A stretch of DNA of 38,395 nt from the NCBI GenBank assembly GCA_947481635.1, contig CANKHJ010000020.1, forward strand, positions 1 through 38,395, written 5' to 3'. The translations under genes and the position numbers were made by a program. Under the pieces are notes generated by a model that was not told the origin of the DNA, did not search any database, and saw only the letters and a list, made by a program, of their open reading frames with translations. Below are positions 4,780 through 36,304 of the stretch, piece by piece. The stretch's first letter is position 1. Each line of letters starts with the position of its first letter. The stretch comes from Bradyrhizobiaceae bacterium (GTDB lineage: Bacteria; Pseudomonadota; Alphaproteobacteria; Rhizobiales; Xanthobacteraceae).

Positions 4780-5004
4780 TCAACGGGGTCCCTGAACTGA
4801 GGGCCCTGAACTTGAAGTACCTCCATTTGAGGTACCTGGCCCGGTCCGTCGCAAACCCCGGGGGGCTGGGGGGCTGAGGAATCCGGTGTTCGAAATCGAA
4901 CCGGGCACTGAGGCAACATCCTCAATATTGTCGGGCAGCTTGGCGTCGGCTTGGCCGAATTCTGTCCGTATTATGATTTGTTTAACGTCTTCGTGAAGCG
5001 TCAT
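4780..5004 (-). CDS. Candidate small protein, uncertain
   Basis: A 74-codon frame starting MTLHEDVKQIIIRTEFGQAD, with an acidic middle and a Gly/Ser/Pro-rich tail. Its stop lies 33 bases before the strong minus-strand terminator at 4716-4747, which is the main reason to list it. There is no convincing Shine-Dalgarno before the ATG. In-frame starts further upstream exist, including one giving about 100 residues. I recognise no family. The low-complexity tail coincides with a nested RNA-like fold, so the tail may be an accident of structured RNA rather than protein. Confidence 0.25.
   Translation of the reverse strand: MTLHEDVKQIIIRTEFGQADAKLPDNIEDVASVPGSISNTGFLSPPAPRGLRRTGPGTSNGGTSSSGPSVQGPR
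4784..4860 (-). ncRNA. Candidate structured RNA ahead of the terminator
   Basis: Three nested stems close on each other: 4784-4789 with 4855-4860 (six pairs), 4801-4805 with 4838-4842 (five pairs), and 4817-4823 with 4829-4835 (seven pairs, five-base loop). A further hairpin-like element, built on GTTCGA/TCGAAC, lies at about 4883-4904. With the downstream terminator at 4716-4747, this would fit a minus-strand small RNA of roughly 200 bases. The fold alone does not fix the strand; the terminator does. No known RNA family was recognised. The rest of the 4605-5108 gap shows nothing else firm; a weak plus-strand promoter-like pair (TTGGCC 4951-4956, TATGAT 4972-4977) has only 15 bases of spacing. 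Confidence 0.3.
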
Positions 5005-31666: not shown

Positions 31667-33364
31667 TCAGGGGTCCGAGCTCATCGCCACGCCTTCGTTG
31701 GCGCGCAGCCGCAGCGTCCCGGACAAAGATTCGCTGGCACGATCGAGATGGGTGGAGAGCAGGATGCGGCGCGCCTCAGTCGGCCGCAACGCGATCTCCT
31801 GCGCCTGTTCGCTGAAATTCAGCGCGACGGTAATCCAGCGGTCGGGATGATAGCGCCGATAGGTCAGCACCGGCCCGACGGTGCCGACGCTGACATGCGC
31901 GCCGACCGACAGCGCGAGTTCGCGCCGGCGCAGCGCGATCAATTCGCGATAGAGCGTGTGGATCGATCGCGGATCGGCGGCCTGGGTTTCGACATTCTCG
32001 CGCCGGTGGTCGGCAGCGAAGGGCAGCCACGGCACGCCGTCGGTGAAGCCGGCATTGACGCTCGCATCCCATTGCATCGGCGTGCGCTCGGGATCGCGTC
32101 CGAGGCCGAGCCCCGGCACGTTCCGCTCCCACGGATCCTGCACCCGATCCGCGGGGATCGGCACGTCGGCCATGCCGATCTCTTCGCCCTGATAGATCGT
32201 CGGCGTGCCGCGCAGCGTGAGCAGCAGCATCGCCGCGACCCGCGCCTGCTTGGCGCCGACGCGGCTCGCCACGCGCGACCGGTCGTGATTGCCCAGCACC
32301 CAGTTCGGCCAATGCTCGGGCGACAGATGCGATTCGTATTCTTCGATCAGCCGCGCGATCGCGTCCGGATCCCATGGCGTCTTGATGAGGTGGAAATTGA
32401 ACGGCAGGTGGAAGCCTGGCACATCGCTGCCGTAATAGGCCATCAACTGCTTGATCGGAAGCGATGCCTCGCCGATCAGAACCCGTTGGCCAGGATAGCT
32501 GTCGGCCACCGCGCGCATCGCGGCGATGGAGTGGTGTACTTCCTCGCGATCGAGATTGTAGATCCGCGTCTGGCTGCGCGCCGGAGATTGACCTGGCCGC
32601 CAGTCCGGGTTCGGCGGGTTGTCGCGCAGTTCTTCATCTTCGATCAGGTGATGGATCGCGTCGACGCGAAATCCATCGACGCCGCGGTCGAGCCAGAAGC
32701 GCATCACGCCGAGCATCGCGGTGCGCACGTCCGGATTGCGCCAATTGAGATCGGGCTGCTGCTTCAGGAAGGCGTGATAATAATACTGGCCGGTGGTGTC
32801 GTCATATTCCCATGCGCTGCCGCCGAATTCGCTGATCCAGTTATTCGGCACGGCGCCTTTCGCGGCCGGATCGCGCCACACATACCAGTCGCGCTTTGGA
32901 TTATCGCGCGACGACCGGCTCTCGAGAAACCACGGATGCTGGTCCGAGGTGTGGTTCGGCACGAAGTCGAGGATCACCCGGAGGCCGCGCCGATGCGCCG
33001 CGGCAAGCAGCCGGTCGAACGCAGCGAGATCGCCAAACCGCGCGTCGATGTCGGTGTAATCGGAAACGTCGTAACCGAAATCGGCCATCGGCGAGGGATA
33101 CATCGGCGACACCCAGATCGCGTCGACGCCGAGCGACACGAGATAGTCGAGCCGCTGGCAGATGCCATCGAGATCACCGATGCCGTCGCCATTCGAGTCC
33201 TTGAACGATCGCGGATAGATTTGATAGACAATGCCGCTCTGCCACCATGCGAAGCGGTCCAGCTTTGGATTGCGTGCGGACGCCGGCGCGTCACACGCCT
33301 CCGTCAACGGCGCGTGGGCTCGCGGTGCAGTTGATCGTTTAGCGGCTAAGCGTGTCGCTTGCAT
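31667..33364 (-). CDS. Alpha-glucosidase, glycoside hydrolase family 13
   Basis: Read from the ATG at 33364 (565 residues), with GGAG seven bases upstream; the frame is open 35 codons further but without a comparable site. The core starts [26 protein letters not shown], the hallmark of oligo-1,6-glucosidase and related GH13 enzymes. The nucleophile is Asp235 ([10 protein letters not shown]), the acid/base Glu299 (LIGEASLP) and the transition-state Asp361 (LGNHDRSR). [10 protein letters not shown] follows. No signal peptide is evident, so it likely acts on alpha-1,4/1,6-glucosides, sucrose or trehalose-type sugars in the cytoplasm; the exact substrate is open. About 30 basic residues precede the catalytic domain. 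Confidence 0.93.
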
Positions 33365-33560
33365 CAATCGGCTCCAGACGCGTTCCTCGCCGACGGCCGG
33401 AGGGATATTCGGGTTCCCTCGCGGGTTGAGCCGGTTCGACTCGATACATAACCACCGGTGTGGCCGCAACGGTGAGGCCGCGGCGCCTGTGGAGAGCCGG
33501 GATCAAGTGTGTCGGGGTTCGAAACTGCCGCCCGCATTGTCGAACGCATCACCGGAATGC

Positions 33561-33875
33561 TTATGCGACAAACTTCAACCCAATGATCCCGGCGAGAATG
33601 AGTCCGATGCAGCCGAGTCGAACGGCGGTAGCGGGCTCCGCAAACAGGATGATGCCGAGGATGACGGTGCCGACCGCGCCGATGCCGGTCCAGACTGCGT
33701 AGGCGGTGCCGACCGGCAGCGTCTTCAGCGCGAGCCCAAGGAAGGCCATGCTGAGGATCATCGCACCGATGGTGAGAACGGACGGCCAGAGGCGGGTGAA
33801 GCCTTCGGTATATTTCAGGCCGATCGCCCAGCAGATTTCAAGCAGTCCCGCGATCAGCAAAGAGAGCCAGGCCAT
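33561..33875 (-). CDS. gdx: Guanidinium exporter Gdx (SugE), SMR family
   Basis: A 104-residue, four-helix small multidrug resistance protein. Glu13 in [22 protein letters not shown] is the essential proton/substrate carboxylate. The [11 protein letters not shown] block is the signature of the SugE/Gdx branch, which exports guanidinium in exchange for protons, rather than of the EmrE drug-exporting branch. [22 protein letters not shown] is also Gdx-like. GGAGG (plus-strand CCTCC, 33881-33885) sits five bases before the ATG. The leader carries two ACGA-loop hairpins of the guanidine-II riboswitch class, which independently supports the substrate. It is divergent from the atp operon. Confidence 0.94.
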
Positions 33876-33892
33876 TGCCGCCTCCGTGAATT

Positions 33893-33943
33893 CGGAGGGT
33901 CGTCCCTGCCATGTCCGTTGGGAAATCGCGAGGTCGTCCCCGC
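33893..33943 (-). promoter_or_regulatory. Guanidine-II (mini-ykkC) riboswitch controlling gdx
   Basis: On the minus strand two hairpins carry ACGA loops: P1, GCGGGG-ACGA-CCTCGC (33943-33928, six pairs including one G-U), and P2, AGGG-ACGA-CCCT (33907-33896). They are joined by a 20-base linker. Paired short stems with ACGR loops define guanidine-II. The 3' arm of P2 overlaps CCTCCG (33898-33893), which can pair with the CGGAGG that includes the ribosome site of gdx (33886-33881). Guanidinium would stabilise P2, free the ribosome site and switch translation on. The structure was read by eye. Confidence 0.88.
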
Positions 33944-34214
33944 TGCCTTTAAGATAGGCATTCAGGCCGTGGACTCAACCTCCCGGGCCGCGGTTTTGGC
34001 TTGCCGCGGCGAATGGCCTTTGTGGGTTGTGAGCCTGCGCGATCACGCCGTGTTGCACCACGGTTTCCCGTGTGTTAGCAACCTCTCGATTTCCAGGGGC
34101 ATGCGCTCCCAGGCTCGCCCCGAAATCGGAATTCCCTCTTGGATTCCAATGGTTTGCGCCGCCACCCGACGCGACGGCGCTGACCTTGCGAGTAAGGCTT
34201 TTCACGAGTTCTCC
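33944..34214 (+). other. Leader region of the atp operon
   Basis: The 339-base gap between the gdx and atpH starts holds the riboswitch and its promoter on the left, and this atpH-proximal part. A plus-strand pair TTGCAC (34053-34058) and TAGCAA (34076-34081), with 17-base spacing, could be the atp promoter. A small hairpin, CACGG/CCGTG, lies in the spacer. The atpH frame is open through the whole stretch, but I see no protein family in it. Confidence 0.3.
33951..33978 (-). promoter_or_regulatory. Candidate promoter of the riboswitch-gdx transcript
   Basis: On the minus strand, TTGAGT (33978-33973) and TATCTT (33956-33951) are 16 bases apart. Transcription would begin at about 33943-33946, right at the base of riboswitch hairpin P1, which is where a guanidine-II leader should start. 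Confidence 0.45.

Positions 34215-36304
<2,090 letters not shown>

Follow-up and report, generated by a model that had tools for sequence, protein, structure and literature searches.

Guanidine-II riboswitches (Rfam family RF01068) combine two GC-rich hairpins with ACGR loops, separated by a linker of 7-40 nt (PMC7544219), and are found in Proteobacteria just before the ribosome site of efflux genes. Around 800 members near ribosome sites have been described (PMC5486947), a review of the class gives 611 examples (PMC12186494), and a match to RF01068 was listed in Mesorhizobium huakuii (PMC5596092). The control of the ribosome site described in these sources takes several forms. The anti-Shine-Dalgarno (anti-SD) sequence of Escherichia coli was put in the linker (PMC9300104, PMC9094411), whereas a P0 helix made of the flanking sequences was proposed for Pseudomonas aeruginosa, for which a ribosome assay gave a K1/2 of 2.2 mM (PMC9561414). 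In Gloeobacter violaceus, a potential stem-loop overlaps the second hairpin (P2) and the ribosome site, and excludes the riboswitch fold (PMC5486947).

The window analysed here, i.e., the whole stretch of 38,395 bases, carries a true member of this class directly before a gene encoding a Gdx-type exporter (Table 1). It is ordinary for the class in its two hairpins and its position, although it scores under the curated cut-off of the family and its P2 has only four pairs. We favour, with a probability of about 0.7, the reading that it is a translational ON riboswitch controlling a guanidinium exporter, the switching step included; the class and the identity of the gdx gene, taken alone, are close to certain. 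The aptamer and the translational ON logic would be those of the E. coli sugE and P. aeruginosa riboswitches, and sugE is also the same type of gene, but the anti-SD of the window is in the tail of P2 and not in the linker or in a helix of the flanks. In this respect the locus resembles the G. violaceus proposal, in which a possible hairpin over P2 and the ribosome site is mutually exclusive with the aptamer fold; it differs in the organism and in the distance from P2 to the site (6 there versus 9 nt to CGGAGG here). The initial annotation considered this instance of the switch worth recording, but the overlapping layout was already in print for G. violaceus (PMC5486947).

Table 1. Positions of the riboswitch elements, the gdx gene and its downstream neighbour in the window.
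Feature	Positions	Strand	Remarks
Candidate -10 element TATCTT	33951-33956	-	7 nt upstream of the P1 stem
P1 aptamer hairpin, GCGGGG-ACGA-CCTCGC	33943-33928	-	6 pairs, one of them G-U; within the RF01068 match
Linker, P1 to P2	33908-33927	-	20 nt
P2 aptamer hairpin, AGGG-ACGA-CCCT	33907-33896	-	4 pairs; within the RF01068 match
Anti-Shine-Dalgarno CCTCCG	33893-33898	-	CCT (33898-33896) common to the 3' arm of P2
Shine-Dalgarno CGGAGG	33881-33886	-	5 nt before the ATG (33875-33873)
gdx (sugE-type SMR transporter)	33561-33875	-	104 aa; NF008512, PF00893, 6wk5_B
GH13 alpha-amylase-family enzyme	31667-33469	-	directly downstream of gdx

The match to RF01068 runs along the minus strand from 33945 to 33895 and covers the entire model (positions 1-48 of 48) with 27.8 bits. 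Its E value is 0.0017 when a 701-base stretch is compared with 4227 Rfam families and 0.0027 over the organism's own 4.9 Mb genome, of which it is the best match. The Rfam gathering score of the family is 32 bits, and the riboswitch is therefore absent from a gathering-level scan; the covariance search suggested in the initial annotation thus yields a full-length match, but one below the cut-off. Four other matches in the same genome (13.4-17.8 bits, E 0.69-7.9) were taken as chance, as was a match to mir-598 inside the gdx coding region, far under its own cut-off. No guanidine-I riboswitch was found in the genome at E up to 0.001; for guanidine-III and guanidine-IV, coverage extended to the window alone, scanned at gathering level. 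RF01068 exceeds its cut-off in 16 of 61 genomes (the 61 including the window's own), and, besides the window's own, sub-threshold matches lie directly before a gdx match in five genomes (G007, G013, G014, G031, G059). Relatives also have strong matches away from the gdx matches, e.g., G013:C1:4995250-4995299 and G027:C37:76058-76106.

The positions initially assigned to the hairpins, to CCTCCG and to CGGAGG are all correct to the base. Both ACGA loops are intact, each closed by a G-C pair, the linker is within the range of the class, and 20 nt separate the end of P2 from the ATG of gdx. Folding calculations predict energies of -9.6 kcal/mol for P1 and -4.3 kcal/mol for P2. Together they form the sole tandem pair of G-ACGR-C hairpins at a spacing of 7-40 nt on either strand of the window, whether the minimum stem length is set at 3 or at 4 bp. 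Of 300 dinucleotide-shuffled versions of the window, 21 contain such a pair with the lower minimum and 5 with the higher one. The leader as a whole does not fold better than its shuffles (z -0.44), of which 53 in 200 fold equally well or better.

We gathered related loci by similarity to the gdx protein and by an RF01068 search, and 121 of the 144 loci have a gdx match (1e-15). Eleven gdx loci from the RNA search are copies of leaders already present, leaving 110 non-redundant leaders, the same number as the loci from the protein searches (L006-L115), that are therefore in effect selected by the gdx protein alone (one protein search contributes the best 80 of 585 relatives). Under a strict filter, 61 of these leaders have the tandem, 10 a single hairpin and 39 none, the count of 61 being a lower bound, as leaders with one imperfect hairpin (e.g., L096, L017) were scored as none or single. 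Some close relatives have gdx without the motif before it, e.g., L087 and L090. At E up to 0.001, 39 of the 61 genomes have SMR genes resembling gdx; the genomes compared with the window's own all belong to other genera.

The tandem filter had demanded only the inner three pairs of a stem; covariation was tested on the outer three. In P1 (61 leaders), 89.1% of the outer cells are paired versus 53.1% in shuffles, and 63 cells are changed on both sides versus 21.4; in P2 (46 distinct segments), the corresponding values are 85.5% versus 66.0% and 24 versus 6.4. None of 500 shuffles reached the number of double changes observed in either stem. The covariation scores, 0.881 for P1 and 0.645 for P2, were likewise unmatched in 500 shuffles and fall to at most 0.250 and 0.260 when the partners are slid by one to three columns. 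The number of pairs with any double change is saturated and uninformative, being attained in 496 (P1) and 364 (P2) of the 500 shuffles. Kinship among the sequences inflates covariation counts; the margin is large. The assignment to the guanidine-II class on the basis of two ACGA-loop hairpins is thus borne out by the family match and by the tandem in relatives, in which ACGR loops on covarying stems precede 61 of the 110 gdx genes, and the conservation of the loops that the initial annotation demanded of related genomes is found.

The gene had been recognised as a Gdx-type exporter from its E13, and this identification stands, export itself being predicted. The protein scores 142.3 bits with the NCBIfam SugE model NF008512 (cut-off 126), matches Pfam PF00893, and aligns without gaps over residues 1-102 with the PDB chain 6wk5_B (E 4e-33). 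We take PDB 6wk5, listed as "SMR family", to be the SMR guanidinium exporter Gdx-Clo. The protein has all of E13, W16, S42, Y59 and W62, which are named in the Gdx-Clo site, and W16 is conserved in Gdx, the Qac subtype having Gly or Ala instead (PMC9574504, PMC7695847). The pump probably removes guanidine. The genome has a single copy of gdx.

On the opposite strand, the ATP synthase delta gene begins at 34215, and on the other side gdx and the GH13 gene are possibly co-transcribed. The initial annotation had pointed out that gdx is divergent from the F1 ATP synthase operon; the arrangement is present here but at none of the other gdx loci compared, and the point was overstated. Neither ATP synthase delta nor the GH13 enzyme is matched (1e-8) in the flanks, up to about 3 kb, of other loci among the 144, the two loci that do match being copies of the window itself. 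Elsewhere in the window, at 4813-4997 on the minus strand, there is a BjrC174 sRNA (RF02355; 47.3 bits, cut-off 45), of a family named for Bradyrhizobiaceae.

The mRNA would start near P1 if the candidate TATCTT element were its -10 box. Of the 61 tandem leaders, window included, 28 have TATA, ATAT or TATC at a distance of 0-20 nt upstream of P1, versus 1-8 of 59-61 leaders in control windows of 20 nt placed at least 10 nt upstream, and this suggests a start near the first base of the aptamer. A stricter -10 hexamer precedes P1 in 22 of the 61 leaders; the window fits the loose pattern only, and a scan for the sigma-70 consensus gave no promoter at its leader.

From these elements we propose the following mechanism. 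When guanidinium is absent, CCTCCG would pair with the Shine-Dalgarno (SD) sequence CGGAGG and block the entry of the ribosome. Binding of guanidinium to both ACGA loops would let the two hairpins form and, by analogy, kiss. The SD would then be freed because P2 uses the CCT of the anti-SD, and Gdx would be made and pump guanidinium out of the cell.

The thermodynamic predictions agree with this scheme in part. CCTCCG is the exact complement of CGGAGG and the resulting 6-bp SD hairpin has a calculated energy of -9.9 kcal/mol; P1 plus this hairpin is predicted at -19.5 kcal/mol versus -13.9 for P1 plus P2. In a ligand-free leader ending just after the ATG, the predicted probabilities are 0.87-0.98 per pair for the SD hairpin and 0.01 for P2. 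Such a dominant hairpin would fit a switch that is OFF until guanidinium overcomes the pairing, and the calculated bias of 5.6 kcal/mol towards OFF looks large for a ligand acting at the millimolar level. Adding about 15 coding bases lowers the SD hairpin to 0.44-0.61 per pair and leaves P1 at about 0.25, whereas about 30 of them bring the hairpin back to a predicted 0.68-0.99 per pair. If P1 and P2 are forced in the presence of about 15 coding bases, four of the six SD bases stay paired; in the best fold, their partners lie in early codons. These figures weaken the switching step and have therefore lowered our confidence in the whole statement.

When the 59-nt leader is shuffled by dinucleotides 20,000 times, 3.0% of the products contain CCTCCG exactly. 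When only the tail is shuffled, with the aptamer and the SD core left in place, 9.5% of 200 products have an SD hairpin that overlaps P2 and has 6 or more effective pairs. A fold that excludes P2 is thus present but only weakly above chance, and is not statistically strong by itself. The initial claim of two mutually exclusive folds is supported, as the hairpin exists and is predicted to be stabler than P2, but the weight put on the SD/anti-SD overlap was overstated. Hairpins using the tail of P2 are found in 10 of the 61 tandem leaders (shuffles: mean 4.9, maximum 12), which is no clear enrichment; a P2-tail platform in the window is plausible, and the comparison gives no proof of it. An anti-SD in the linker, as in E. 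coli, was found in 0 of 61 leaders at p 0.02 and in 4 of 61 at p 0.1 (shuffles of the ribosome-binding site), in a test that is not decisive. Its P2 segment was clipped near the SD, and P2-tail hairpins were therefore tested separately.

Three other explanations of the locus have to be weighed. That the hairpins are chance products of a GC-rich intergenic stretch, with no riboswitch, could be argued from the sub-threshold RF01068 score, the leader folding z of only -0.44, and the RF01068 matches in control genomes, 11 of 14 of which have one when E values up to 10 are admitted and 3 of 14 when the limit is 0.1. Yet the tandem is unique in the window, its match has the genome-wide E value given above and lies exactly before gdx, and covarying tandem hairpins are found at a similar distance in related gdx leaders. 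Covariation and position together make chance hairpins very unlikely. A degenerate or non-functional riboswitch is improbable, if less so. It would account for the 27.8 bits and for a P2 of 4 bp where the tandem leaders of Bradyrhizobium have 6 bp, but both loops and their closing G-C pairs are intact, a 4-bp P2 is also present in the Citrobacter leaders L070 and L072 and in L131 (from a genome of the same family, with identical P2 letters), and a short P2 would suit a switch between P2 and the anti-SD.

The remaining alternative accepts a guanidine-II aptamer before gdx and concerns only the switch: the match between CCTCCG and CGGAGG would be incidental, and the SD would be controlled otherwise, either by pairing of the ribosome-binding site to early codons or elsewhere, or by co-transcriptional kinetics. 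We consider it rather unlikely, though much less so than the two preceding ones. The match has a probability of 0.03-0.095 by chance, the SD has other partners once coding bases are included, and the 61 tandem leaders divide, by the criteria used here, into 13 with complementarity to P1 (see below), 10 with a P2-tail hairpin and 38 with neither. Against an incidental match, the SD hairpin is predicted to dominate both when the leader is cut after the ATG and when about 30 coding bases are included, and the layout agrees with what was proposed for G. violaceus (PMC5486947). We keep the translational ON switch, P2 tail included, as the preferred reading.

Relatives show a different relation between aptamer and ribosome site. 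In 13 of the 61 tandem leaders, the ribosome site and its spacer show complementarity of at least 8 nt with the P1 loop and the arm on its 3' side (shuffle control: mean 5.5, maximum 12 in 200 rounds), whereas the ribosome sites of aptamer-free gdx leaders reach 8 nt with the same P1 segments in 0.3% of pairings. CGTC stands directly before the start codon in 12 of the 61 tandem leaders and in none of the 39 aptamer-free ones (Fisher p 0.003). A further 30 loci (L145-L174), among the matches listed, come from the genus of G023, a genome whose Gdx falls inside the Bradyrhizobium clade of the Gdx tree. The tandem is present in 24 of these 30 and six fail the tandem filter; complementarity to P1 extends over 8-12 nt in 23 of the 24 tandem leaders and over 10-12 nt in 19. 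The typical ribosome site plus spacer of Bradyrhizobium-type leaders is GGAGGGTYGTC. Complementarity over 8-12 nt is also seen in the Bradyrhizobium-type leaders of L012, L021, L022, L027, L031, L039, L044, L053, L078 and L124. The window itself does not have this complementarity, its longest run being 4 pairs.

The species with this complementarity are closely related, and when ribosome sites are swapped among the 61 tandem leaders, 16.8% of pairings reach 8 pairs versus 13 of 61 with their own site. Outside the Bradyrhizobium leaders, 3 of 47 reach 8 pairs with their own site versus 3.6% of swapped pairings, which is no clear advantage (permutation p 0.20). The complementarity is best regarded as a trait of the lineage that could plausibly serve a function, not as proof that it does. 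In such a loop-capture arrangement, the ribosome site itself would compete for the ligand-binding loop of P1. We recognised no description of this platform in the guanidine-II literature searched, which did not extend to the primary papers on the class. On a Gdx tree in which 48 of 106 inner branches are unresolved, the label of P1 capture has to change 9 times or more and that of the P2 tail 8 times or more. That related gdx riboswitches use several interchangeable platforms, the P2 tail in the window and loop capture in Bradyrhizobium-type leaders, is a tentative idea to which we give somewhat less than even odds.

Gathering-level Rfam scans probably undercount the guanidine-II class in these bacteria, because five other genomes have sub-threshold matches directly before gdx. 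The comparison of relatives suggests a stable aptamer combined with expression platforms that differ between lineages. The most interesting lead is then less the window itself than the complementarity found in its relatives, which is possibly a distinct platform.
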